A DNA stretch of 13,663 bases from Candidatus Poribacteria bacterium (GCA_014730235.1 WJIO01000370.1:1-13663); one strand, 5' to 3'; positions 1 through 13,663 are shown, counted from the stretch's first letter. Notes: generated by a model not told the origin, from the sequence alone. Numbers and translations are program-made.

Positions 1-405
1 ATCAATAAGCTGTTGTGCATAGCCAATAGGTATTTTATACTTCATTCGAGTATGGGTCCAGGCCATAACTACAGGATCATCAATTGACGGTGTTTCTGAT
101 AATGAGCGTTTTTTCCATTCGTTTAAACCTGATTGCAAGTCACCCTCAGGTATATCCACCAGATCATCACTGATGCGGCAAAAAGAATATAAAGCCCTTG
201 CCGCCCGGCATTTTTCTCCCGGAAGTAAACTTGATGCCACATAAAAAGTGCGGCTGTGATGTTTTGTAAGTTTTCGGCAGTGTTCATAAGCCTCTTCCAG
301 AGCTAATCTGTCAACATCAATGAAGTTGAATTCAACATGCTCTTCAAAGGCCTTATAAGCCTTCTCCAGAAGCTTTTCTTCCCAGGAACATGTATATAGT
401 GTCAT
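1..405 (-). CDS. crtB: Phytoene/squalene synthase family protein (phytoene synthase), 3' end cut by window
   Basis: The first 135 codons are visible and the frame is open to base 1. The family condenses two geranylgeranyl diphosphates head-to-head to phytoene, the first committed carotenoid step, and acts at the membrane surface. The sequence shows HHSRTFYVASSLLP (residues 49-62), the RAARALYSFCR segment (67-77) and the first aspartate-rich motif DDLVD (80-84), which binds Mg-diphosphate. The second Asp motif would lie outside the window. Family members run about 280-310 residues, so roughly half is missing. The ATG (405-403) overlaps the TGA of crtI as ATGA, so translation is probably coupled; only a weak GTGAGAG-like ribosome site precedes it. 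A squalene-type (C30) synthase cannot be excluded from this half alone, but pairing with a CrtI-type desaturase favours phytoene. Confidence 0.9.
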   Translation of the reverse strand, partial: MTLYTCSWEEKLLEKAYKAFEEHVEFNFIDVDRLALEEAYEHCRKLTKHHSRTFYVASSLLPGEKCRAARALYSFCRISDDLVDIPEGDLQSGLNEWKKRSLSETPSIDDPVVMAWTHTRMKYKIPIGYAQQLID

Positions 406-1934
406 CTCTCACTTTCTATTATTTTACCCGGAATGGATACAGATTTTTCAGGAACGCGCTGTTCCTTAAGAATCCGTTCCACAACAAGACGGGCTGATAT
501 TAATACCATAGGAAGTCCCCCGCCTGGGTGCGTGCTGGCTCCAACAAAGTAGAGGTTTTTATAACGGTCATGACGGTTATGAGGTCGTAAATATCCTACC
601 TGAAATAGGTTATGGCTGAGACCAAAGGCCGAACCTTTAGCCAGATTAAGATAATCTCTGTAATCTGTCGGTTCAATTATCTCTTCAAAAGCTATATACT
701 TTTCCAGATTTTTAATACCAATAGATTCCAGTTTTGCAAAGACTTTATTTCTGGCTTTATCCCGGATTGCATCCCAATCCTGGGGGGTTTCTTCGTTAAT
801 ATGACCTACTGGAACCAAGACCAGAAGGCTGTCACCATCCGGTGGAGCGCAGGAGTCATCGGTACGGGATGGGGAACATACATAAAACGAAGGATCATCA
901 GGCAAAGTCAAATCCCGGAAGATTTTATCAAAGGATTCCCGATAATTATTGTCGGCAAGAAATACGTTGTGATGTTGAAGCTGTTCCGGTCTTGTCCCCT
1001 TTATACCCCAATAAAACATTATGGCCGACGATGAATACTTTTTCCGATACAATCTTTTTGCTTTGTTTTTATCCGGCAGAAGTTCCGAATATACATAAGG
1101 TAAGTCTGCATTAGCTATAATGGCATCAGATTCAACTTTTTCACCGTTTTCCAGAGTTACACCTGTTGCCTTTGAACCTTCCACGTTGATTTTTGCCACC
1201 GATGAGTCATAATGAAACTTCACACCCAAGCCCTGGGCAATATCCGTCAGGGTTTCAACAACTTCATACATACCGCCCCGGGGATACCAAACACCCTGAA
1301 CCGCTTCGGTATATTGTAGAAGGGAATATGTGGCCATAGCATCATAAGGGCTAAGACCCAAATACATGTTTTGAAAGGAAAAGCCAGCCCGAAGGCGGGA
1401 GTCTTTGAAAAACTTTGATGTATTGTTGTAATGTTTCGCCAGTGCCTTTATGCGAATCACCAGTGGGAAGTTTGATGGACTCAGGTATTCCAGCCATGAC
1501 CTGAAGTTTCGACCTACAAAATGCTTTAATGACAGGTGATAATTACGGTAACCTTCTTCCGTAAATCTAAGGAAAGCCTCAAAAGAACCCGGTTCTATAG
1601 ACTCCAACTGGTCGAACATGCTTTTAAGATCACCAGTTATATTCAGCTTTGTTCCATCATGAAAATGCACCTTGTATGTAGGATCAATTCGGATTAAATC
1701 AAGATGGTCTTCCATATTTTCACCCAGGGATTCGTAAGTTTCAGCAAATATTTCTGGCATCAAAAAAAGAGTTGGTCCTGTGTCAAAGCGATGACCATCC
1801 CTCTCAATAATTCCAGTTCGTCCTCCAGGAATAGAATTTTTCTCTAAAATGGTAACTCTACATCCCAAACGAGCTAAACGTGCAGCAGTTGAAAGACCAC
1901 CAATCCCAGCGCCTATTACAATTGCTGTATTCAA
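402..1934 (-). CDS. crtI: Phytoene desaturase (CrtI family), TTG start
   Basis: A 510-residue FAD-dependent carotene desaturase, expected to turn phytoene into neurosporene or lycopene at the membrane. Seen in the sequence: an N-terminal dinucleotide-binding motif GAGIGG (residues 8-13), followed by E31 and PGGR (36-39). FDTGPTLF follows (about 51-58). Near the C-terminus is the CrtI signature FVGASTHPGGGLP (about 463-475), which completes the FAD site. Length is normal for the family (about 490-520). The start is TTG at 1934-1932, eight bases after AAGGAG; an in-frame TAA lies only four codons upstream and no ATG lies between. The 3' end overlaps crtB by ATGA. A MITE lies 67 bases upstream and separates it from the prenyltransferase gene. 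The number of desaturation steps, or a C30 substrate, cannot be read from the sequence. Confidence 0.92.
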   Translation of the reverse strand: MNTAIVIGAGIGGLSTAARLARLGCRVTILEKNSIPGGRTGIIERDGHRFDTGPTLFLMPEIFAETYESLGENMEDHLDLIRIDPTYKVHFHDGTKLNITGDLKSMFDQLESIEPGSFEAFLRFTEEGYRNYHLSLKHFVGRNFRSWLEYLSPSNFPLVIRIKALAKHYNNTSKFFKDSRLRAGFSFQNMYLGLSPYDAMATYSLLQYTEAVQGVWYPRGGMYEVVETLTDIAQGLGVKFHYDSSVAKINVEGSKATGVTLENGEKVESDAIIANADLPYVYSELLPDKNKAKRLYRKKYSSSAIMFYWGIKGTRPEQLQHHNVFLADNNYRESFDKIFRDLTLPDDPSFYVCSPSRTDDSCAPPDGDSLLVLVPVGHINEETPQDWDAIRDKARNKVFAKLESIGIKNLEKYIAFEEIIEPTDYRDYLNLAKGSAFGLSHNLFQVGYLRPHNRHDRYKNLYFVGASTHPGGGLPMVLISARLVVERILKEQRVPEKSVSIPGKIIESER

Positions 1935-1942
1935 TATAAATA

Positions 1943-1948
1943 CTCCTT
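1943..1948 (-). promoter_or_regulatory. Ribosome binding site that fixes the TTG start of crtI
   Basis: AAGGAG on the minus strand lies 8 bases before the TTG at 1934. Because a stop codon sits in frame four codons upstream of the TTG, this site decides the start. Confidence 0.8.
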
Positions 1949-1973
1949 ATATATGTTTCATAAGCAATTTCCA

Positions 1974-1979
1974 ATTATA
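1974..1979 (-). promoter_or_regulatory. Possible -10 box for crtI-crtB
   Basis: A perfect TATAAT on the minus strand lies 39 bases before the crtI start. No convincing -35 box lies 16-18 bases upstream; that position abuts the left end of the MITE. If used, it would let crtI-crtB be transcribed independently of the isomerase-prenyltransferase pair. Confidence 0.25.
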
Positions 1980-2001
1980 TAGATGAGATTTTTTCTTGAT
2001 T

Positions 2002-2172
2002 GTAATCGTTAAAAAATGAAAAATGTGTTTAGAAAATACCTTTATAATCATGGTAAATTACAAAATTTGTCATTCCTGCGAAAGCAGGAATCCAGAAAAA
2101 ACTATCATGGGAGACTGGATTCCTGCTCTCGTAGAAATGACAACTAAATTATATCCATTTTTAAACGATTAC
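2002..2172 (+). mobile_element. Intact 171-bp MITE with terminal inverted repeats and 6-bp target duplication
   Basis: The ends are inverted repeats of 16 bases (2002-2017 and 2157-2172) differing at one position; the outer sequence is GTAATCGTT. TTGATT lies directly outside both ends (1996-2001 and 2173-2178), which reads as a target-site duplication. Inside, two 28-base arms (2068-2095 and 2115-2142) pair with three mismatches around a 19-base loop. There is no transposase, so mobility would need a protein encoded elsewhere. Related partial copies are at 4263-4354 and 7881-8010. An open frame across it that gives a peptide containing CHSCESRNP is a by-product of the repeat, not a gene. Confidence 0.82.
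2068..2142. repeat. Long inverted repeat inside the MITE
   Basis: Two 28-base arms would form a long hairpin in RNA or single-stranded DNA. Each arm contains its own small palindrome (TCATTCCTGC / GCAGGAAT). It lies in the gap between the prenyltransferase gene and crtI and could weaken read-through between them. It lacks the T-run of a standard terminator. Confidence 0.75.
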
Positions 2173-2211
2173 TTGATTAGACAATGTTTTTTACATTTCC
2201 ACACTCAAGTC

Positions 2212-3126
2212 TTAAAAACAAATTGCCAGGATAAAACTTACCGAAACACCCAGATTAATTATGAGAGTCTTTGCACATATATTTTCCAACGCTTTATGTT
2301 CTTTATAGTGCTTTTTAAATACCTGAATTATCGTTATCAAAGAAAGTATAAATACTGGCAGAAAAAAGATTAACGCTTTTAAAGGTATACCTGCCCAGAT
2401 AGCAATTAAATATGAAATCCAGATCCCTATACTGAATATAATATAAATCTTACTCATCTTTGACTTACCAAAGCGCACCACCAGGTTTTGCTTTCCTGTC
2501 CTTTTGTCGGCCAGATAATCCGGGAATTCATTAATTAATATCACATTAAATATAGAAAAGATAATAGGTAGTGATGTCCAGTGTATAATATTAGGAAATT
2601 TACCTGTCTGTAAATAGTAAGACGCAGCTACTGTAAGCCATCCATAACAAAAACCTATCCATATTTCTCCAAGTCCTTTATAAGCCCATTGCACAGGTTT
2701 TGCTGAATAAAACAACCCTCCCAAAATCCCGATTATCCCCAGAGGCAAAGTAAATGCGCCGGTATCATAATAAAAATGAAGTATAAATCCTATAACCAGC
2801 GCCGCAGAAACTGATACCAGAGAAGCGATCAAAGCATGATGTCGGGGTATCAATCCTGATTGTATTACCTGGCTGCCTCCTGTAAAGCGATTTCTACCCA
2901 GCTCTGATGAGAGGTTATCCGTTTCATAGTCGTAATATTCTCCTGAATAATAGGTTGCCGAAAGAATCAGAGCAACACACAGAGTTCCCCAGAATAAAAC
3001 TGTCCAGTCAATAACCCCTGTATTATACCAGGCCAGAACATTACCCAGTATAAATGGAAAAATTCCTACTGTGTGAAAAGGCAGTCTGGACAAAGTTATC
3101 CAGGCTTTCAGCTTTTTTATATTCAT
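2212..3126 (-). CDS. UbiA-family prenyltransferase, MenA-like
   Basis: A 304-residue integral membrane protein with about eight or nine hydrophobic segments. UbiA enzymes transfer a polyprenyl chain from its diphosphate to an aromatic or other acceptor. The first Asp-rich motif is at residues 62-70 (G-E63-YY-D66-YET-D70), and FTGGSQVIQSGLIP follows at about 81-94. The second motif is N199-EFP-D203-YLA-D207-KRTGK, followed by a NLVVRFG stretch. The GGSQ...GLI segment and the GKQNLVVRFG segment resemble MenA (1,4-dihydroxy-2-naphthoate prenyltransferase). The usual first ND of the NDxxDxxxD motif reads GE here. Its ATG overlaps the stop of the isomerase gene as ATGA, with only a weak ribosome site. 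Context allows a quinone role or a carotenoid-modifying role such as a lycopene elongase; sequence resemblance favours the former. The acceptor is not known. Confidence 0.85.
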   Translation of the reverse strand: MNIKKLKAWITLSRLPFHTVGIFPFILGNVLAWYNTGVIDWTVLFWGTLCVALILSATYYSGEYYDYETDNLSSELGRNRFTGGSQVIQSGLIPRHHALIASLVSVSAALVIGFILHFYYDTGAFTLPLGIIGILGGLFYSAKPVQWAYKGLGEIWIGFCYGWLTVAASYYLQTGKFPNIIHWTSLPIIFSIFNVILINEFPDYLADKRTGKQNLVVRFGKSKMSKIYIIFSIGIWISYLIAIWAGIPLKALIFFLPVFILSLITIIQVFKKHYKEHKALENICAKTLIINLGVSVSFILAICF

Positions 3127-4181
3127 TTTTTCACCAGATATTTTGTATTTCCCAGTTCCTTGAGGTTAGCTGAACCTGTGCAAAACATAGCAATCTTCAA
3201 TTCTTCAATTATTCTGTTCAGAACGTTTTCCACCAATAAAGGAGATTCCAGGGCTGGAGATAAAAGTGGTAGAGCAATACCTATCACCGAAGCTCCTAAA
3301 GCTATAGCCTTAGCTGCATCAACGCCGTTTCTTATACCTCCTGATGCTATAACAGGTATATCAGGAACAGCGGATTTAACCATATTTAAGCTTTCCGCCG
3401 TTGGTATACCCCAGTCGGAAAAGGTATCCCCTATAGTTCTTTGACAGTCGCTCTTTGCCCGGTAGGATTCGATCATAGCCCAGGATGTACCGCCCGCGCC
3501 GCCGATGTCAATACAGTCAACACCAGCGTCTACAAGTCTGGATGCAACCTCTTTTGATATCCCGCAACCTACCTCTTTGACAATAATAGGCATCTCTATC
3601 TTTCGCCGTAGCTTCTTAATATTTTCCAGCAATCCCCTGAAGTTGGTATTTCCTTCGTATTGTATGGCTTCCTGAAGGGGATTTAGATGGAGGGCCAAAG
3701 CATCAGCACCTATCATGGATATAGCATCGAGACAATTTTCATAATCAAAGCCATTATTAAGCTGAATAGCCCCAATATTTGCTATCAACAAAGCATCAGG
3801 CACTGTATGTCTTACCTGAAACGTATAGGCTAAAGACGGTTGTTCCAGTGATATTCTCTGGGAACCAACCATCATGCCTACCCGCAGTTTCTGGGCAGCT
3901 ATGGCCAGGTTCTCATTGATTTGAAAGCTCAGCTCCGTTCCGCCGGTCATAGATTCAATGATAACAGGATAATTCAGGACTTTGTCGAATAAATTAAGGG
4001 AAAGATCAATATCGCTCATATTAATATCCGGCAAAGCCTGGTGGATAAAGCTATAATTTTCAAAACCCGTTGATTTGTTCTTAAATCCAACATCCTCATT
4101 AAGGCATATACGGATATGATCGGCTTTTCTGTCCTGAGTCATCCTGTTGAATTTTGTTTCTCGGTCTTCTGAATTCCGCAT
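3123..4181 (-). CDS. fni: Isopentenyl-diphosphate delta-isomerase, type 2 (FMN-dependent)
   Basis: A 352-residue soluble flavoenzyme that interconverts isopentenyl and dimethylallyl diphosphate using FMN, reduced cofactor and Mg. Visible family marks: DRKADHI near the N-terminus (17-23); ESMTGGTE (76-83) at the flavin site; and HLNPLQEAIQYEG (165-177), with the conserved QxEG. Further on are KEVGCGIS, DIGGAGGTSW, DWGIPT and ASGGIRNGVDAAKAIALGA, the TIM-barrel phosphate/flavin loops. Length is typical (330-370). The ATG at 4181 has GGAG eight bases upstream. A later Met14 lies next to the conserved region but has no such site in front. It is first in the cluster and supplies C5 building blocks for the prenyltransferase and carotenoid enzymes downstream. 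A 23-base repeated element lies 32 bases upstream of its ATG. Confidence 0.93.
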   Translation of the reverse strand: MRNSEDRETKFNRMTQDRKADHIRICLNEDVGFKNKSTGFENYSFIHQALPDINMSDIDLSLNLFDKVLNYPVIIESMTGGTELSFQINENLAIAAQKLRVGMMVGSQRISLEQPSLAYTFQVRHTVPDALLIANIGAIQLNNGFDYENCLDAISMIGADALALHLNPLQEAIQYEGNTNFRGLLENIKKLRRKIEMPIIVKEVGCGISKEVASRLVDAGVDCIDIGGAGGTSWAMIESYRAKSDCQRTIGDTFSDWGIPTAESLNMVKSAVPDIPVIASGGIRNGVDAAKAIALGASVIGIALPLLSPALESPLLVENVLNRIIEELKIAMFCTGSANLKELGNTKYLVKK

Positions 4182-4262: not shown

Positions 4263-4354
4263 TCATTCCTGCTTTCGCAGGAATGACAAATTTTGTAATT
4301 TACCATCATTATAAAGGTATTTTCTAAACACATTTTCCATTTTTTAACGATTAC
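4263..4354 (-). mobile_element. Partial MITE copy (left end plus hairpin)
   Basis: Read on the minus strand from 4354, it matches the left half of the 2002-2172 element nearly base for base, starting with the same GTAATCGTT end. It stops after a perfect 10-bp hairpin (TCATTCCTGC / GCAGGAATGA with a TTTC loop, 4263-4286). The right arm and right terminal repeat are absent, and no target duplication can be assigned. It lies between encapsulin and fni, inside the 321-base gap. Confidence 0.75.
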
Positions 4355-4502: not shown

Positions 4503-5303
4503 CTATTCAAATGTACATATAGCACCAGGGCGTTTAATTCTCAAAACTACTGTTTCAAACACCCGAAAGGGATGATCCATATCCTCAGCCCCGAGATAAG
4601 CAGTAGTTAGATCCTCTCCCACAACCAGGTCCATATTTTGTTTACCTGTAGCCACAATTATGGCCTGATCACCTTCTATTGCTGGTGATTGAAAAACACC
4701 TTCAGTCATCAATTCCTTGACCATAGCTATTTCAAGAACTCCGGTTCCTTCATACACTCGGTGCATCTTGGCATATAAAGAGGGGCTTACCACCATTGCA
4801 TAAGGACCATAAAAACCACCCGACATTAGCTTTTCCGTACCAGCTACCACATTCTGAAAAGCATTGCCGGTAACCTGCCAGTCCTTAACCTCTGCGGTTG
4901 TACGACCTTCGGCGTTTAACAGTCCTTCATAACCTTCCATACCATTGAAAACCATATTGTCTTCTTGCATAGCGCAATAAGCAGCCGCTCCGGCAGCAGG
5001 CCCTAGTTCCAGCGGAATACCATATACTTTCGCCGATTCAATATCCCGCCAGTGAAGTTTAAAATCTTTTTGTATCATGGGTATGGTGATATTTTCGCGC
5101 TTCTTAACAGCTATTTCACCTTCTTTAAAACCACCCATGGAAGGTTTTGGGACCACAGTAGCACCAGCACCCAAAGGCCCGGTAATGCCTATAAATCTGC
5201 GTCCAACCAGTCGCCTTCGTGCAGATTCCACCACAAGTTTATCTATTTTTTCCCAGTCTTCGCTGCTTAAAGGAGCATCATCTCTTGCAAGATAATCAGC
5301 CAT
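4503..5303 (-). CDS. enc: Encapsulin nanocompartment shell protein (family 1)
   Basis: A 266-residue HK97-fold shell protein, expected to self-assemble into a small (T=1 size) icosahedral compartment in the cytoplasm. Marks of the linocin/encapsulin family: N-terminal DYLARDDAPLSSEDWEKID (residues 3-21), the region that forms the cargo-binding inner surface; the RRLVGRRFIGITGPLGAG segment (about 30-47); FYGPYAMVVSP in the middle; and the C-terminal RVFETVVLRIKRPGAICTF strand. Length is typical (about 260-270). The ATG at 5303 follows the cargo gene's TAA with one base between, and GGAGGGA lies inside the end of the cargo gene, so the two are tightly coupled. Last gene of a three-gene operon. 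The neighbouring cargo points to iron storage and protection from ferrous iron, not a peroxidase system. Confidence 0.95.
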   Translation of the reverse strand: MADYLARDDAPLSSEDWEKIDKLVVESARRRLVGRRFIGITGPLGAGATVVPKPSMGGFKEGEIAVKKRENITIPMIQKDFKLHWRDIESAKVYGIPLELGPAAGAAAYCAMQEDNMVFNGMEGYEGLLNAEGRTTAEVKDWQVTGNAFQNVVAGTEKLMSGGFYGPYAMVVSPSLYAKMHRVYEGTGVLEIAMVKELMTEGVFQSPAIEGDQAIIVATGKQNMDLVVGEDLTTAYLGAEDMDHPFRVFETVVLRIKRPGAICTFE

Positions 5304-5304
5304 T

Positions 5305-5685
5305 TTATTCTCCCTCCGTTTTCTTTTCCTCTATAAGGCTTCCTACAGTCGAATCTGACTTCTCTTCTTCAGGTTCTGTGTTAGATTTTAATGATTCAAT
5401 CATTTCTTCAACCTCTTCATAACCTTCGTCATAGAATTTCTGTTCATCCGAGTCCAGTTCATGAAGCAGTCGGAGAAATTCACCGGCATGAACTCTCTCT
5501 TCGTCTGCAATATCTACAAGAACTTCTATAGCCAATTTGTTGTCCGTTGACTCCGCCAGTTGAATATAAAGCTGAACTGCTTCATATTCTGCGGAAATCA
5601 TAAATCTTATCGCCCTGATCAGTTCCTCATGAGTTAGTTTTCTGTCGTTTTTAAGCCCTGCGAATGCTGACCCAAAATCTGGCAT
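5305..5685 (-). CDS. Encapsulated ferritin-like cargo protein
   Basis: A 126-residue protein with two predicted helices of the encapsulated-ferritin (EncFtn) type. Such proteins form half a ferroxidase site and assemble as rings inside the shell, oxidising Fe(II) for storage. Candidate metal ligands are E33/E35 in SAEYEAVQLY and E63 with H66 in DEERVH. The tail (residues 86-126) is acidic and carries STVGSLI (112-118), matching the family's cargo-loading peptide (TVGSL core), though residues EEKKTEGE follow it. The start is ATG 5685, seven bases after AAGGAGG (5699-5693). An in-frame ATG at 5712 would add nine residues that include the ribosome site and is rejected. It lies one base before encapsulin and 41 bases after the oxidoreductase. 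A rubrerythrin-like role is less likely, as no further iron site is seen. Confidence 0.9.
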   Translation of the reverse strand: MPDFGSAFAGLKNDRKLTHEELIRAIRFMISAEYEAVQLYIQLAESTDNKLAIEVLVDIADEERVHAGEFLRLLHELDSDEQKFYDEGYEEVEEMIESLKSNTEPEEEKSDSTVGSLIEEKKTEGE

Positions 5686-5692
5686 TATAATA

Positions 5693-5699
5693 CCTCCTT
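5693..5699 (-). promoter_or_regulatory. Ribosome binding site deciding the ferritin-like start
   Basis: AAGGAGG on the minus strand sits seven bases before the ATG at 5685. It falls inside the longer in-frame reading from 5712, so the shorter protein is the supported one. Confidence 0.85.
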
Positions 5700-5726
5700 G
5701 AAACTCTTGCATCTTTATAAAAATGC

Positions 5727-7301
5727 TTAATTCAAACGTTTTGTCATATTGACTATTCCCTGGCGCAGTTCATCTGGTTCAGGCATCTGATCTGTACGCA
5801 TTAATTCAGCAATAGCCGGCATATGAGCAATTTTACCTGCACCTGAGGCAGCCATAACTTTATCATTTTTAATGTAATAAGCCACAAAGTTACGCATTGA
5901 TGGTTTACCATGAAAAATTATTTCATCCCAATCTTTTGCATAACCTACATATCTTAGATTGACTCCCAGTTGGTTAGTCCAGAAAAATGGAATACTCCGG
6001 TATTCCGTCTCTTTACCAGCCATATTAAAGCCAGCCACCCGTCCAAGCTGTTCCGCCAGACGCCAATGCTCAATTCGAATTCTTTCCCCTGATCGCCAAT
6101 CTATAAAGCTTACTATATCCCCGGCTGCGTATATATCTTCAGTAACCTGAAAATGCTTATCTACTGTAACACTTCTATCTGGATTTAATTCCATATTTTT
6201 TAGAAAATCTGTAGCAGGACGAACCCCTACACCTGTTACCACAAAATCTGATTCAAGAGTTTCTCCGTTGTCCAGGACAACTTTCTCTACTGATTTATTA
6301 CCTTCAAATCGAGCCACTTTACGGCCAAGTTTAAATACTGTGCCGCTGTTTTCATGTATTTCTTTATACATACTCCCCACTTCAGCACCCAAAATTCTCT
6401 GGTAAGGTAATTCTTCCGGAGCTACAATAGTGATATAAAGTCCTTTTTCAGCTAAATTCGCTGAAATTTCCATACCGATAAAACTCGCCCCGATTATTAC
6501 CAGCTTAGCACCTTTTTGAGCAAGACTTCTGATTTTCAGAGAATTATCCGGATTTCTTAGGGTAATAACATTATCCAGACCTGCACCCGGTACATCAACT
6601 TCTCTTGGAATACTGCCCGGAGCCAAAAGAACCTTATCATATTTGAGATATTTTCCATTGTCAAGCATCAGCTTTTTGCTGTGCGCATCTACTCCAGTTA
6701 CATTATGACCTGTCAAAACTTCAATACCGTATTCCGAATAAAATTCTTCTGAACGCAGCATTTCCGGTTCTTGGTCTTCGCTTTTCAAAAAGCCTTTGCT
6801 TAAACCTGTTCTATCATAAGGTAAACGGCTTTCTTTTGTAAGCATAAGGATTTTTCCCTCAAATCCTCCTTGTCGCATAGCCTCTGCTGCTGTGGCTCCA
6901 GCCGCACCTGTTCCCACAATAATAAAGGTCTGTTTATCAGCGTCTGGATTATATTTTGCCATATCAGGATGACGAGTTTCCGAAGCATCTTCTTCCACAA
7001 TTACAATAACGTTATCATCTTCAATCCGCACATCAAATCGAGCCAGGGAATCCAGGGAAGGTGGTTCTTTAAGATCTCCCGTTACAACATCAAAACAGGC
7101 CTGATGCCATGGACAGCGTATGTGATGTTGGTGCAATACTCCCTCTTCCAACGGCGCGCCAAAGTGAGGGCATGTCGATCCAAGAGCATAAAAATTATTG
7201 TTATCCCGAACTAATAATACCTCTACTTCACCTACTAAAAATTCCTTCATTTCGCCATTTTCTAAATCTGTAGTTTTTGCTACAATCTTTTCAATCTTCA
7301 T
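5727..7301 (-). CDS. Rieske [2Fe-2S] / FAD-NAD(P)H oxidoreductase (AIFM3-like domain order)
   Basis: A 524-residue fusion of a Rieske domain and a pyridine-nucleotide-disulfide-type flavoprotein. Rieske ligands are C44 and H46 (CPHFGAPL) and C63 and H66 (CPWH). The FAD motif is GTGAAG (129-134) after a ~25-residue linker; a second nucleotide motif IIGASFIGMEI (about 270-280) should bind NAD(P)H. A conserved AAGDI segment precedes IEHWRLAEQLGRVAG. Expected reaction: electrons from NAD(P)H through FAD and the 2Fe-2S centre to an acceptor. No signal peptide or cargo peptide is visible, so it is probably cytoplasmic and outside the shell. ATG 7301 has AAGGAGG five bases upstream. It is the first gene of the encapsulin operon. 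By analogy with ferredoxin/reductase partners of bacterioferritin, it may reduce stored iron for release; that is inference. Dioxygenase-reductase function is the main alternative. Confidence 0.88.
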   Translation of the reverse strand: MKIEKIVAKTTDLENGEMKEFLVGEVEVLLVRDNNNFYALGSTCPHFGAPLEEGVLHQHHIRCPWHQACFDVVTGDLKEPPSLDSLARFDVRIEDDNVIVIVEEDASETRHPDMAKYNPDADKQTFIIVGTGAAGATAAEAMRQGGFEGKILMLTKESRLPYDRTGLSKGFLKSEDQEPEMLRSEEFYSEYGIEVLTGHNVTGVDAHSKKLMLDNGKYLKYDKVLLAPGSIPREVDVPGAGLDNVITLRNPDNSLKIRSLAQKGAKLVIIGASFIGMEISANLAEKGLYITIVAPEELPYQRILGAEVGSMYKEIHENSGTVFKLGRKVARFEGNKSVEKVVLDNGETLESDFVVTGVGVRPATDFLKNMELNPDRSVTVDKHFQVTEDIYAAGDIVSFIDWRSGERIRIEHWRLAEQLGRVAGFNMAGKETEYRSIPFFWTNQLGVNLRYVGYAKDWDEIIFHGKPSMRNFVAYYIKNDKVMAASGAGKIAHMPAIAELMRTDQMPEPDELRQGIVNMTKRLN

Positions 7302-7880: not shown

Positions 7881-8010
7881 GTAATCGTTAAAAATGTGTT
7901 TAGAAAATACCTTTATAATGATGGTAAATTACAAAACTTGTCATTCCTGCGAAGGCAGGAATCCAGTAGATCCGCATAAAGACTGGATTTTTGCCTTCGC
8001 AGGAATGACA
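7881..8010 (+). mobile_element. MITE copy lacking its right terminal repeat
   Basis: It begins with the same GTAATCGTTA end as the intact element and matches its left half closely, apart from a short deletion after the terminal repeat. It carries both 28-base arms (7939-7966 and 7983-8010, two mismatches, 16-base loop). After the right arm the sequence switches to the 8013-8058 repeat instead of the expected right terminus. It lies in the divergent region and points toward the macroglobulin gene. Confidence 0.78.
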
Positions 8011-8012
8011 GC

Positions 8013-8058
8013 ATAAAGAGGTTTCTTATCTTTACCACACCGAACTCGGAAGAACCAA
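8013..8058 (+). repeat. Direct repeat, first copy
   Basis: About 46 bases starting ATAAAGAGGTTTCTTATC that recur at 8173-8218, exactly 160 bases downstream, with a handful of substitutions. It includes one copy of the 23-base element (8035-8057), ending CGGAAGAACCA. Confidence 0.8.
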
Positions 8059-8086
8059 ATTTATGATTGGATTTATTAACTTGCCG

Positions 8087-8172: not shown

Positions 8173-8218
8173 ATAAAGAAGTTTCTTATCTTTACTACAC
8201 TGAACCCGGAAGAGCCAT
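8173..8218 (+). repeat. Direct repeat, second copy, just upstream of the macroglobulin gene
   Basis: Second copy of the 46-base repeat. Its 23-base element (8195-8217, ending CGGAAGAGCCA) stands 28 bases before the ATG at 8246, close to the 32-base spacing of the related copy before fni. Confidence 0.8.
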
Positions 8219-8245
8219 AAATAATATTCAGGGAGGTACTTAAGA

Positions 8246-11200
8246 ATGGATCAGGACAAACAGCAATTATCAGAAGAGAATAGCAAAAAACCCAGGTTAA
8301 GCGTCGGGCTTTGGTTAGGTATAATTGCTGTATTACTGGCTGTTATCATTGCCGGTCTGGCCTATATCTGGGGAACACCGAGAGGCAAGATACCTGTTAC
8401 TATAGAAGACTTTGATCCTGAGGGTGAAATAACCAGAACCACAAATTTTACTGTGGAATTTTCACAGGATATGGTACCCGAAAATCAGGTAGATATACAG
8501 ATAGATAATTTACCCATTGAATTTTCACCGGAAATACCAGGTAAATTTCGATGGATAGCCAGAAATAAATTAAGATTTTTCCCTGAGATAACGTTAAAGC
8601 CATCAACTGAATATACAGCCAAAATCCTGCCTGAGATTTGCACAGTTGAGGGTATGTATCTGAAGGGTGACAGACGCTTTAGTTTTTATACTCAAAGATT
8701 TCGCGTCGATAATACATATTTTTCTTTTAATCTGGCCGATCCTGATGGTGACAAAATCAGAATTCTTGGCACAATTGAATTCAATTATGCTGTTAAAGCT
8801 GATGATTTAGCTGAAAATTTATCTCTGTCATTTGAAAATGGGCCTAAAATACCATATAAAGTCATAACTCCCGATTCTGGACTTGCCATTAAAATTGAAA
8901 CCGAATCCCTGGAACGGAACGAATCGGATAAAAACCTTCAGCTTAATATCTCCCAAAATTTAAAACCAATTGATGGAAATCTCGGTCTTTCCCAGGATTA
9001 TGTCCAGACCATAGTAATGAAAGCCAAAGAGGAATTAAAAGTTGAGGGTGTTTTTGCAGAACAAAGGGGTCAAAAAAGTTATATAAAAATAAGGTTTAGT
9101 TCCCCTGTATCTGTTGATATGGCAAAGCAGTTTATAACCCTTGAACCGAAAATGGAACATACAATTTCAACCAGCAGTTACAATTACGTGGAAATCAGTG
9201 GAAATTTTCAGGCTGGTAAAGGTTATACTGTAAATGTCAACAAAGGCATTATAGGTGTTGACGGCTCCCGGCTTAAAAGCGATTTCTCATCAAGGGTGGT
9301 AATGCAAAACCTGGAACCCAGTATAGGTTTTGTTGGCGATGGTATTTATCTTTCCAGGCAGGGAAATCTCAATATAGGTCTGTCAACTATAAATATCAAC
9401 GAAGTAGAAATAGAAATACAAAAGGTCTATGCTAATAACCTCATACACTTACTTCATACTAATACAGTAGAAAGAGATTATGGATGGTACAACCTTAATA
9501 ACCTGGGTAAGGTTGTAAATGAAAAAGAAATAAATATCGCATCCCGTCTTAACGAAGAAATTGTTACACCAATAAGTATGCGGGATTATCTAATGTCCGA
9601 AAGCAAAGGTATATTTGCTCTGATTGCTCGAAATGTTGAAAAACGTTGGCAATACAGCCGAAAGTGGGTAATGATTACGGATCTGGGTATAACCGTTAAA
9701 AATGCAGGTGGGGATTTCCTGATCTGGGTAAATTCCCTTTCATCCCTGGAGCCTGTGTCAAATGCTGAGATCACTTTATTAAGCCGTAATAACCAGATCA
9801 TGGGTACAAAATCAACAGATCAGGACGGCACAGCCGTTTTTAACTTATCTGAAAGCGTTATGGAGGAATTTGAACCATACCTGGTCACAGTCTCCCATGA
9901 AGGCGATCTGTCTTTTCTGGATATGGATCATCGAAGGGTAGACACCACAGACTATAATGTAGAAGGTAGACCCTACCTTCAGTATGGTTATGATGTCTTT
10001 ATATACGGAGATCGGGATATATACAGACCGGGAGAGACTGCCCATGTAGTGGCAGTTATTAGAGGAACAAAAACCTCAGTTCCCCCATCTTTTCCTCTTA
10101 AAATGGAAATCCTGGGCCCGGACAATCGCATATTTACCGAGTTGATGCAAAAGACCGGTGATGCAGGCGCATGTGAGTTTGATGTGGAATTTCCCAGCTA
10201 TGTAAAAACAGGGCGTTATACTGCCAGGGCTATTGTGGGTAAAGATAACGAAATTGGCCGGGGCTATTTCAGCGTGGAAGAATTCATGCCGGATCGTATT
10301 AAGGTTAAGGTAACCACCGATTCAGATTCCTATGAATTGGGGCAGGATGTCAAGGTAAATGTGGAAGCTGTTAATCTGTTCGGCCCTCCTGCCAGCGGCA
10401 GACAGCTGGAAGCCCGGGCAGAAATTATAAGCCATGATTTTTCTGTTCCTCAATGGAAGTCCTTCACATTCCGGGATTCCAGCAAAAGTTTTGATAAAAA
10501 GAGAATGGATCTGGGAAAGGCAACGCTGGATCAGAACGGAAAATATACATATAATATGAATATAAAGGACAATATCCAGCCTCCTTCATCCCTTCAGGCC
10601 AATATATCAGCTACGGTACTTGAACCCGGTGGGCGGGGGGTAACAGGTTATAAAACCGTTGATGTGCATCCCTACTCCCATTATGTAGGCATCAGGCGCA
10701 CAAAAGAAGGCTATGCGGATGTGGGCAAACCTGCTGAGATGGATTTTATTGCAGTTGATAAAAATGGTAAAGTTGCGCCGGGTAGACAATACGAGGTTTC
10801 ATGTTACCGGATAACATGGCATTCCATATTGCGGCGTGCAGGTCGCAGGGGTTACAGGTATGTATCAGAAAAACAGGAAAACCTTGTTAAATCCTTCCCC
10901 CTGCAATCAGGCGAAAGACCGACCAAATTCTCTTTTACTCCTGACGATTACGGTGAATACCGCGTAGCTATTAAAGACATTGAATCATCCGCTTCGGCGT
11001 CTATAAACTTCTACGCCTCCGGCTGGGGTTATGCTCCATGGGCAATGAATAAACCAGAAAGATTGGAGATCGATCTGGACAAAGAATCCTACAATGCGGG
11101 AGATACTGCCCAGGTGCAAATCCGATCCCCCTTTGCTGGTAAGCTTCTGCTTACAGTGGAAGGTGATAGGATACATCATCGCCAATCCGTTATTATGGAC

Positions 11201-13663
11201 GAAAACACAGCAAAGGTTTCAGTTCCCCTATCATCAAATTACAAACCCAATGCATACATAGTTGCAAGCGTCATCCGTTCCACCCGATCCCTTGAAAGAC
11301 ATGCGCCGGTAAGGGCCTTTGGTGTTGTGCCTTTGTCTATGAATAATGAGGAAAAAAGGCTTTCTATAACAATGAATACCCCTGCTGAAATGAGACCAAA
11401 AACATCCCTGGATGTATCCTTTACCGTAAAAGGTACTCAAACTAATAAAGCATATATAACCATAGCGGCAGTTGACGAGGGTATATGCCAGTTGACAGGA
11501 TTTGAAACCCCTGATCCTTTCAGCTTCTTCTATGGCAAAAAGCGTCTGGAGGTAAACTCTTATGACATATATTCCGCAGTTCTACCGGAAATCGAAAACG
11601 CCATGTCTGCATCAACAACCGCAGGGGATCAGGATACGTCCCGAAGGCGTGTGACACCAGTAAACATACAGCGCGTAAAACCTGTGGCTCTATGGTCAGG
11701 GATAATGGAAACCGACAGAAATGGTAAAGGTAGTGTGTCTTTTGATATACCACAATTCAACGGCAGCCTGCGTATTATGGCCGTGGCTTTTTCAGATGAC
11801 AGCTTCGGTTCTACCCGAAATGATGTAAAGGTATTTGATCCAATTGTCCTTACACCCACCTTTCCAAGGTTTATGGCCGGGGGTGACAGCATACAGATCC
11901 CTGTCAGTATATTTAATGGAACAGGCGTTACCGGGAATTTCTCAGTAACTTTGGGTTTCAGCGGCCCCATTGAAACTTTAAAGCCTGAATCCCATGTTTT
12001 ACAGCTTGAACCAAAGGCAGAAAAACAGGTATTTTTCCTTGCCAGGGCTGAAAACAGCATGGGTAAAATAACTTTCAACCTGTCCGCATCCGGCGGCGGA
12101 GAAAAATCAGAAATGAGTGTTGATCTGCCGCTGCGACCAGCCGCACCAGCCATAACTATAACAGGCAGCGGCGTGGTTAAACCCAATCAGGATACCACTT
12201 TAGAGATTCCCGGCGCCTGGATTCCTGACACAGCCGAATTTGAATTAACCCTTTCTTCATTCCCCGCAACCCAATTTTCCAGCAGTTTACAGTATTTGCT
12301 CAGGTATCCCTACGGATGCGCGGAACAGACTACATCAAAGCTTTTCCCACTGCTTTATTTTAATGACATGGCGAAGCTGGTGGAACCTGAGCTTTTCGGC
12401 ACAAAAAGCCCGGATTATTATATTATTGAAGGCATACAAAAATTAGGCAACATGCAAAATCCATCAGGCGATTTCTCCTTCTGGCCCAGAGGCAATTACA
12501 GCAATCCCTGGACCAGTATATATGTCTCCCACTTTTTGGTTGAAGCCAGAAAAGCTGGATATGAAGTGCCTGATCGGGTATATGATAATATGATAAATGC
12601 CCTTAAAGCCCATGCAAAATCATCTATCCGGGATTACTGGATGCAACAGGCAAAGGTATATGCCTGCTATGTTCTTGCCTTAGCCGGAAGGCCGGAAAAG
12701 AGCGTTATGCTTTATCTTAAAAACAATGAACTGGACGATATGTGGGATTACAGCCAGTTCCAGCTTGCCGGTGCTTTTGCTTTATCCGGGGATGCCAGAA
12801 CTGCCCGTTCCCTGATCCCCAATACAGCACAACCCAGGGAAATTGAAAGAGAAACCGGCAGAAACTTTAATTCATCCACCAGGGCCAGGGCTATCATGCT
12901 GGATGTGCTTTCGGAAGTAGATCCGGATCATCCATCTGTGCCAAAGCTGGTGAGAAGCCTTTCGGATGATGCAGCCAAAAATAATCGCTGGTATACTACC
13001 CAGGATAATGCCTTTGCATTTCTGGCTTTGGGTAAAATTATGCGTAAGCACGAAAAAGCCGATTACAAAGGAGAAGCCGTAATTAACGGTTCTCAATTGG
13101 CTGATTTTGACGAGGGTGATTATAAATTCAGCGGAAAAGACTGGGGTGGAAAGACAATCGACATAAGCATAGACGGACAGGGCACATGCTATTACTACTG
13201 GAAGGCATTCGGTGTTCCCACAACTCCTGATATTAAAGAATACGATCAGGAACTTGTAGTCCGGCGAAGGTATCTGGATAAAAACGGCAGAGAGATAAGA
13301 TATGACAATTTCCAGCAGGGGGATGTGGTTGTGGCTGAGATTAAGGCAAAAGCTGTTACAGAAGACCTTAATAACGTTGTCATTGCTGATCTTCTTCCCG
13401 CAGGACTTGAAATTGAGAACCCAAGACTGGGTTCCCGAGCGGGAATTCCCTGGATTCAGGATAAAGGAGTTAATCCCAGCTATATGGATATAAGGGATGA
13501 CCGGATGTTATTGTTTGTAGATTTACCAAGACAAAAAGAGCAGAAATTCTATTATGGTCTAAGGGCTGTGACTGTGGGAAATTTCGTCCTTCCACCAGTG
13601 GCCGGAGAAGCCATGTATGATCCCACCAAGATTTCTATAGCAAACAGCGGCAGGATTAAAGTA
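8246..13663 (+). CDS. Bacterial alpha-2-macroglobulin, thioester type, membrane-anchored; 3' end cut by window
   Basis: An open frame of 1806 codons running to the last base. Bacterial alpha-2-macroglobulins trap attacking proteases in the periplasm or at the cell surface through a reactive thioester. Visible in order: a charged N-terminus; one membrane segment (about residues 20-42); extended beta domains; GDRDIYRPGE (588-597), the family's macroglobulin motif; AVDEGI (1075-1080) followed by FETPDPFSFFYG; LWSGIMETDRNGKG; the thioester PYGCAEQ, with C1358 and Q1361; and an alpha-helical thioester domain ending near WYTTQDNAFAFLALG. The final visible residues (AMYDPTKISIANSGRIKV) look like the family's C-terminus, so only a few residues are probably missing. 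There is no lipobox cysteine, unlike the E. coli lipoprotein form. The ATG has GGGAGG nine bases upstream. A partner PbpC gene, often adjacent, would lie beyond the window. Confidence 0.95.
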   Translation, partial: MDQDKQQLSEENSKKPRLSVGLWLGIIAVLLAVIIAGLAYIWGTPRGKIPVTIEDFDPEGEITRTTNFTVEFSQDMVPENQVDIQIDNLPIEFSPEIPGKFRWIARNKLRFFPEITLKPSTEYTAKILPEICTVEGMYLKGDRRFSFYTQRFRVDNTYFSFNLADPDGDKIRILGTIEFNYAVKADDLAENLSLSFENGPKIPYKVITPDSGLAIKIETESLERNESDKNLQLNISQNLKPIDGNLGLSQDYVQTIVMKAKEELKVEGVFAEQRGQKSYIKIRFSSPVSVDMAKQFITLEPKMEHTISTSSYNYVEISGNFQAGKGYTVNVNKGIIGVDGSRLKSDFSSRVVMQNLEPSIGFVGDGIYLSRQGNLNIGLSTININEVEIEIQKVYANNLIHLLHTNTVERDYGWYNLNNLGKVVNEKEINIASRLNEEIVTPISMRDYLMSESKGIFALIARNVEKRWQYSRKWVMITDLGITVKNAGGDFLIWVNSLSSLEPVSNAEITLLSRNNQIMGTKSTDQDGTAVFNLSESVMEEFEPYLVTVSHEGDLSFLDMDHRRVDTTDYNVEGRPYLQYGYDVFIYGDRDIYRPGETAHVVAVIRGTKTSVPPSFPLKMEILGPDNRIFTELMQKTGDAGACEFDVEFPSYVKTGRYTARAIVGKDNEIGRGYFSVEEFMPDRIKVKVTTDSDSYELGQDVKVNVEAVNLFGPPASGRQLEARAEIISHDFSVPQWKSFTFRDSSKSFDKKRMDLGKATLDQNGKYTYNMNIKDNIQPPSSLQANISATVLEPGGRGVTGYKTVDVHPYSHYVGIRRTKEGYADVGKPAEMDFIAVDKNGKVAPGRQYEVSCYRITWHSILRRAGRRGYRYVSEKQENLVKSFPLQSGERPTKFSFTPDDYGEYRVAIKDIESSASASINFYASGWGYAPWAMNKPERLEIDLDKESYNAGDTAQVQIRSPFAGKLLLTVEGDRIHHRQSVIMDENTAKVSVPLSSNYKPNAYIVASVIRSTRSLERHAPVRAFGVVPLSMNNEEKRLSITMNTPAEMRPKTSLDVSFTVKGTQTNKAYITIAAVDEGICQLTGFETPDPFSFFYGKKRLEVNSYDIYSAVLPEIENAMSASTTAGDQDTSRRRVTPVNIQRVKPVALWSGIMETDRNGKGSVSFDIPQFNGSLRIMAVAFSDDSFGSTRNDVKVFDPIVLTPTFPRFMAGGDSIQIPVSIFNGTGVTGNFSVTLGFSGPIETLKPESHVLQLEPKAEKQVFFLARAENSMGKITFNLSASGGGEKSEMSVDLPLRPAAPAITITGSGVVKPNQDTTLEIPGAWIPDTAEFELTLSSFPATQFSSSLQYLLRYPYGCAEQTTSKLFPLLYFNDMAKLVEPELFGTKSPDYYIIEGIQKLGNMQNPSGDFSFWPRGNYSNPWTSIYVSHFLVEARKAGYEVPDRVYDNMINALKAHAKSSIRDYWMQQAKVYACYVLALAGRPEKSVMLYLKNNELDDMWDYSQFQLAGAFALSGDARTARSLIPNTAQPREIERETGRNFNSSTRARAIMLDVLSEVDPDHPSVPKLVRSLSDDAAKNNRWYTTQDNAFAFLALGKIMRKHEKADYKGEAVINGSQLADFDEGDYKFSGKDWGGKTIDISIDGQGTCYYYWKAFGVPTTPDIKEYDQELVVRRRYLDKNGREIRYDNFQQGDVVVAEIKAKAVTEDLNNVVIADLLPAGLEIENPRLGSRAGIPWIQDKGVNPSYMDIRDDRMLLFVDLPRQKEQKFYYGLRAVTVGNFVLPPVAGEAMYDPTKISIANSGRIKV

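Follow-up and report, generated by a model that had tools for sequence, protein, structure and literature searches.

Iron exit from encapsulins is an open question, and the locus described here bears on it, as its operon offers a three-component system made of a shell, a ferritin-like cargo and a chain running from NAD(P)H to an iron-sulfur cluster. What, then, would a Rieske–FAD reductase do in front of a cargo gene and a shell gene? We addressed this question in a stretch of 13,663 nucleotides from Candidatus Poribacteria bacterium (GCA_014730235.1 WJIO01000370.1:1-13663), hereafter the window, which contains the following features.

5727..7301, minus strand: Rieske–FAD NAD(P)H oxidoreductase, the operon's first gene, 524 aa (Pfam domains, predicted structure)
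7035..7286, minus strand: Rieske [2Fe-2S] domain, residues 6-89, with ligands C44, H46, C63 and H66 (Pfam, homolog alignment)
6048..6926, minus strand: FAD and NAD(P)H binding domain, residues 126-418 (PF07992, 190 bits; GTGAAGATAA at residue 130)
5748..5987, minus strand: Reductase_C domain (ferredoxin reductases), residues 439-518 (PF14759, 42 bits)
5686..5726, minus strand: reductase-cargo spacer of 41 bases, holding the cargo Shine-Dalgarno AAGGAGGT
5305..5685, minus strand: ferritin-like cargo, EncB family, 126 aa (NF058679, 106 bits, cut-off 90; fold; diiron motif)
5335..5349, minus strand: cargo-loading peptide TVGSL, residues 113-117 of the cargo (sequence motif)
4503..5303, minus strand: family 1 encapsulin shell protein, 266 aa, Myxococcus EncA/IMEF type (NF041155, 279 bits)

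A compact operon of reductase, cargo and shell genes

By analyzing the ORFs of the window, we found the reductase (7301–5727), the cargo (5685–5305) and the shell (5303–4503) in this order on the minus strand, with gaps of 41 bases and 1 base and the cargo starting at ATG 5685. This matches exactly the original prediction of three tightly packed co-directional genes, the first of which encodes a single-polypeptide NAD(P)H-FAD-Rieske protein, the latter being recognized by Pfam through its Rieske, Pyr_redox_2 and Reductase_C domains. A clear Shine-Dalgarno sequence is found at all three starts (AAGGAGGG for the reductase, AAGGAGGT for the cargo and CGGAGGGAG for the encapsulin), and a terminator scan of the coding strand detected no terminator-like site between the operon genes. 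Given that promoter-like sites were about as frequent in our scan as in shuffles (14 versus 11.6, sd 2.7), it is the close spacing that suggests that reductase, cargo and shell may be co-transcribed. The reductase is the sole extra gene of this operon, from which rubrerythrin, peroxidase and rubredoxin are absent.

Around the operon, we noticed three copies (2002-2091, 4265-4354 and 7891-7962) of a MITE-like or REP-like element of 72-90 nt that contains a CATTCCTGC hairpin. Two of them, at 4265 and 7891, are inverted relative to each other (97% complementary) and enclose precisely the three genes of the operon and the region upstream of them; no exact copy was found in the other loci searched. 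Downstream of the operon lies an isoprenoid/carotenoid cluster (402-4181; Pfam, NCBIfam) with a CrtI-type desaturase, a UbiA/MenA-like prenyltransferase and a type 2 IPP isomerase. A large, divergent bacterial alpha-2-macroglobulin gene (8246-13663), open at the contig end, has a 56-nt direct repeat in its upstream region (8013-8068, 8173-8228).

Family assignment of the three proteins

The reductase combines a Rieske domain (PF00355, residues 6-89, E 5.5e-19), Pyr_redox_2 (PF07992, residues 126-418, E 6.7e-56, 190 bits) and Reductase_C (PF14759, residues 439-518, E 1.2e-10, 42 bits). These three domains in one chain, with intact ligands, place it among the Rieske–FAD proteins of AIFM3-like architecture. 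The Rieske ligands belong to the motifs CPH (44-46) and CPWH (63-66), and C44, H46, C63 and H66 are invariant in an alignment of eight homologs. The FAD motif GTGAAGATAA is intact at residue 130, as are all the cofactor residues. Rieske proteins of the bc1 type carry an extra cysteine pair; because this pair is missing here, the cluster is of the ferredoxin type. The AlphaFold model is a confident single assembly (pLDDT 91.6, pTM 0.90) whose best fold matches are putidaredoxin reductase, CYP199A2 ferredoxin reductase and toluene dioxygenase reductase, its flavoprotein part being closest to putidaredoxin reductase and to the ferredoxin reductases of dioxygenases and P450s. We found no loading-peptide motif in the reductase sequence, in agreement with the original prediction; on the same ground, we rejected an identity as an EncD-type ferric reductase.

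The cargo passes the NCBIfam model EncB_fam (NF058679, 106 versus a cut-off of 90) but falls short of the threshold set for TIGR04535, which models classical EncFtn (84.5 versus 125). Its diiron motif E33-x29-E63-x2-H66 has the spacing of a ferroxidase site, and E33, E63 and H66 are invariant in an alignment of eight cargos. The fold of the cargo model matches the P. furiosus encapsulated ferritin domain as well as M. xanthus EncC and EncB, and the loading peptide TVGSL is located near the C-terminus (residues 113-117). The cargo is an encapsulated ferritin of the EncB/P. furiosus type, a classical EncFtn being ruled out by the TIGR04535 score even though the E/E/H motif is present. Of the encapsulin–EncFtn pair proposed originally, the shell and the ferritin-like cargo were borne out but the label was not: EncB_fam is the only one of the two models that the cargo passes, and "EncFtn" is a loose name for it because of the low TIGR04535 score. 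We also rejected an IMEF system, as the cargo belongs to the EncB family and the [2Fe-2S] domain is Rieske rather than Bfd-like.

The shell reaches 279.3 bits against NF041155 (cut-off 100; NCBIfam). Among its solved relatives, M. xanthus EncA scores 281 bits, shell 6nj8 268 bits and the T. maritima shell 55 bits. With an HK97-type shell and an adjoining cargo bearing TVGSL, the pair belongs to the family 1 encapsulins, assembly and loading being predicted. In an alignment of high divergence, Arg occupies the position of the T. maritima flavin-binding Trp in the window shell and in almost every shell of its type, with a Trp one column away; this does not support a flavin relay bound to the shell.

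The Rieske–FAD gene is not a standard encapsulin partner

Among 84 genomes of the window's phylum, encapsulins were found in two, the window genome and another one of the same order (G001), and the strong Rieske–FAD homologs of the phylum belong to the same two genomes. The G001 shell comes with a Flp-type cargo, and its full-length reductase homolog (54% identity, L006:4281-6960) lies on a separate contig, adjoining FolE and a gene of the uroporphyrinogen-decarboxylase (URO-D) family (methyltransferase-like). A Rieske-less paralog in the window genome (50%, L007:7190-9490) is likewise located beside such a URO-D-family, methyltransferase-like gene; these neighbors perhaps point to a second role of these reductases, such as corrinoid reduction.

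A pattern-limited scan of 84,980 species returned at least six further full-length homologs (43–50% identity), which belong, among the matches listed, to KSB1, Zixibacteria, Acidobacteria, a cyanobacterium and Halanaerobiaceae. Together with G001 and with a search of Zixibacteria genomes, this brings the full-length homologs to at least 12. A recurrent association of the fusion with encapsulin genes, which the original prediction left to a genome survey, did not emerge: the two adjoin in the window genome only, and none of the other full-length homologs (0/12, among the matches listed) has an encapsulin or a window-type cargo nearby. Within this sample, the outcome is one that the original prediction had named as speaking against it. 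No Rieske–FAD gene was found beside an encapsulin in 80 genome-contig loci (pattern-limited, among the matches listed) or around 25 shells of the window type, no encapsulin was found near the Zixibacteria homologs, and the viral contigs searched in this survey gave no relative. The ORFs that we read around the homologs encode OsmC, DJ-1-like, Cu-ATPase, PEBP, URO-D and other unrelated proteins, with OsmC and DJ-1-like genes near those of Zixibacteria. The Rieske–FAD gene is not a standard encapsulin partner. A stand-alone EncFtn-like protein of 90 aa without loading peptide is encoded about 8 kb from one Rieske–FAD homolog (L014:12659-12931), and similar stand-alone copies occur in KSB1 genomes.

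We also considered an electron chain serving a ring-hydroxylating dioxygenase. The window holds no terminal oxygenase subunits (ORFs, Pfam, NCBIfam), and no such dioxygenase was seen beside the 12 full-length homologs, whose translated ORFs were read by eye. On this reading of the ORFs, we rejected the candidate: the homologs seen have unrelated neighbors and do not sit mainly with dioxygenases.

Could a general-purpose Rieske–FAD reductase simply have landed before the cargo–shell pair while serving another pathway? The varied contexts of the other homologs, which lack an encapsulin among the matches listed, and the different context of the Rieske-less paralog fit such a chance arrangement. 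We nevertheless consider it unlikely, given the 41-base spacing, the common strand and the presence of a second, different reductase/carrier pair in operons of the same cargo clade, described below.

The closest cargo relatives carry another reductase and carrier

We looked for redox genes around window-type shells in three other phyla, namely Chloroflexota and those of Thermoanaerobacter and of a deltaproteobacterial MAG. First, the cargos nearest to that of the window, three in number (64–74% identity; loci L150, L183 and L184), belong to Bacillota. In G871 (cargo 64%), one strand carries rubrerythrin, EncB cargo, shell, rubredoxin-like, rubredoxin and NADH:rubredoxin-type reductase genes, the latter with Pyr_redox_2 and Rubredoxin_C domains. 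The same gene order is found in G998 and G1004, with a redoxin-family peroxidase ahead of both operons. In G1004 (L184:6162-7869), the shell and reductase genes are damaged, looking truncated or interrupted, with cargo, rubredoxins and rubrerythrin intact, which could be decay or an assembly error. Second, Chloroflexota G316 has rubrerythrin, rubredoxin and an NADH:rubredoxin-type reductase upstream of a Flp cargo and shell. Third, further window-type shells adjoin rubredoxin, rubrerythrin, desulfoferrodoxin or flavodiiron protein, and none of these redox neighbors was found at the control loci with another, EncFtn-type shell (0/11, some contigs being short).

Two other arrangements were noticed at these loci. 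In G199 (L133:282-6399), whose shell is 58% identical to the window shell, pyruvate:ferredoxin oxidoreductase genes and a flavodiiron (FprA-like) protein gene stand between the shell and a tandem Flp cargo gene, all on one strand. In two Chloroflexota genomes, genes divergent from Mx-type shells (L127:2383-2943, plus strand; L128:885-1460, minus strand) encode a 186-191-aa protein with an N-terminal LTVGSL and no Pfam match, possibly a new cargo whose loading peptide is N-terminal.

We built a tree of 16 EncB-like cargos, in which the window cargo groups with those of G871, G998 and G1004 in a single clade (100/99). All four clade members have an NAD(P)H flavoprotein and an iron carrier in their operon, compared to none of the 12 other EncB-like cargos; as G871, G998 and G1004 are close kin, these amount to two independent cases and not four. 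The shells group differently: those of G871 and G998 (L150/L183) are sister to Flp-cargo shells (100/99), and the window shell, whose placement in the shell tree is weakly supported, is closest in sequence to the Flp-cargo shells of G001 and G199 (58–59% identity). Since the shell history differs from the cargo clade, electron supply would track the cargo and not the shell, and the electron chain appears to go with a cargo subtype and to be built from different parts in two lineages. It is possible, although we are less confident in this than in the electron-donor reading of the window operon given below, that an NAD(P)H chain of its own consistently accompanies this cargo clade and was acquired on two or more occasions (a reductase and a rubredoxin in Bacillota, Rieske–FAD here), with electrons crossing the shell from an outside donor.

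The same neighbors suggest another function. The reductase might power peroxide or O2 removal through the cargo diiron site or through rubrerythrins encoded elsewhere, while the compartment locks Fe(II) away so that no Fenton chemistry takes place, on the model of the NADH-flavoprotein-rubredoxin-rubrerythrin chain of anaerobes. Relatives' operons indeed hold rubrerythrin, redoxin-family peroxidase, rubredoxin, desulfoferrodoxin or flavodiiron protein, five further rubrerythrin-family genes are present in the window genome, and the Zixibacteria homologs lie near OsmC and DJ-1-like genes. Because the recurrent neighbors are peroxide- and oxygen-defense genes, this is a strong rival, and they make oxidant handling nearly as likely as iron release. 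Taken on its own, we still find it somewhat doubtful: the window operon itself has no rubrerythrin, peroxidase or rubredoxin, and encapsulated ferritins of this cargo's kind are, to our knowledge, ferroxidases and not peroxidases.

A proposed route for electrons into the compartment

Tentatively, we read the operon as an iron-storing nanocompartment served by its own NAD(P)H→FAD→Rieske donor, probably for reductive iron release. The reductase would take electrons from NAD(P)H and, by analogy with known families, reduce first its FAD and then its Rieske cluster in single-electron steps. The cluster would then feed the compartment, where core Fe(III) would be reduced to Fe(II), which would leave. 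The reductase presumably stays outside the shell, as it lacks a loading peptide and its size should bar it from the pores. The last step across the shell could be carried out by a small carrier (free reduced flavin or another protein), by a relay or by docking on the shell. Our analysis of the operon found no carrier or relay for this step; with no loading peptide, no expected passage through the pores and Arg at the flavin-Trp position, the proposed route has to invoke a small mediator or a reductase docked onto the shell.

Close spacing, a shared strand, strong Shine-Dalgarno sequences, intact cofactor sites and a confident reductase model argue for electron supply, and the rubredoxin and NADH:rubredoxin-type reductase of the closest cargo relatives lend the functional idea some support by analogy. 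The cargo clade, the G316 locus, the control loci and the published donors discussed below also speak for it. Against it, the Rieske–FAD gene adjoins an encapsulin in one genome only (among the matches listed), G001 having both genes apart; the clade comprises two independent cases; and the recurrent neighbors (rubrerythrin, redoxin-family peroxidase, desulfoferrodoxin and flavodiiron protein) are oxidant-defense genes. Since the window operon is without such genes, the balance tilts slightly to the compartment itself.

The gene context would be the same if the reductase acted in loading, either by keeping iron ferrous for entry or by recycling an oxidant or flavin during mineralization (oxidant recycling was the second option of the original prediction), and the T. 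maritima shell does bind flavin (PMC8610991). In the window shell, the flavin-binding Trp is not conserved (alignment of high divergence). Moreover, we know of no encapsulin whose ferroxidase loading needs a reductant, and a loading role seems very improbable.

If electron supply by an outside donor is true, such encapsulins would be electrically supplied nanocompartments, with electrons entering across the shell. The cargo-clade pattern sets encapsulins with a dedicated electron supply apart from those without, and for engineering purposes the operon could yield a simple switchable iron store.

Comparison with known systems

The M. xanthus EncA–EncB/EncC–EncD system resembles the window operon in shell type (281 bits) and in its EncB-family cargo. 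EncD is described as a flavin ferric reductase that depends on NAD(P)H and frees iron from the Mx encapsulin (PMC11202242), a flavin-dependent electron source comparable to the one predicted here; EncD is encapsulated by its own loading peptide, whereas the 524-aa Rieske–FAD reductase has none. In T. maritima, the flavin bound to the shell did not clearly affect iron release, and an undiscovered protein electron factor was suggested (PMC8610991).

The IMEF system of Firmicutes shares a related shell (6nj8, 268 bits) and an operon-encoded [2Fe-2S] carrier (PMC6668986, PMC8346489). A Bfd-like ferredoxin is found in 70% of IMEF operons (PMC6668986) and has been proposed to release iron (PMC6668986, PMC8346489). 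This ferredoxin is a protein by itself with a loading peptide at its N-terminus. In the window, by contrast, the cluster sits in a Rieske domain fused to the NAD(P)H reductase, and the cargo belongs to a family other than IMEF.

In full-text searches, which covered few subscription journals and no supplements, no paper that connects encapsulin to rubredoxin came up, and a single review mentioned both encapsulin and Rieske in passing. This agrees with the original claim that a Rieske–FAD chain is not a standard described encapsulin part. The Bacillota operons (L150/L183/L184), with the nearest cargo relatives, share the logic of an NADH-FAD-small iron carrier chain within the operon, but their reductase is of the Rubredoxin_C subfamily (Reductase_C in the window), their rubredoxin is separate and they have extra rubrerythrin genes; this reductase and rubredoxin beside an EncB cargo and shell are apparently undescribed.

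BphA4, TodA and putidaredoxin reductase, which serve dioxygenases and P450s, have the same flavoprotein fold and domains, and the Rieske domain of the window protein is of the ferredoxin type. Unlike these reductases, the window protein joins both functions in one chain with no oxygenase nearby, and its homologs stand in contexts unrelated to aromatic degradation. Together, these comparisons place the operon as follows: the principle of an electron donor encoded in an iron-storing encapsulin operon is already known, and no earlier description seems to exist of these donor types or of the cargo-clade pattern.
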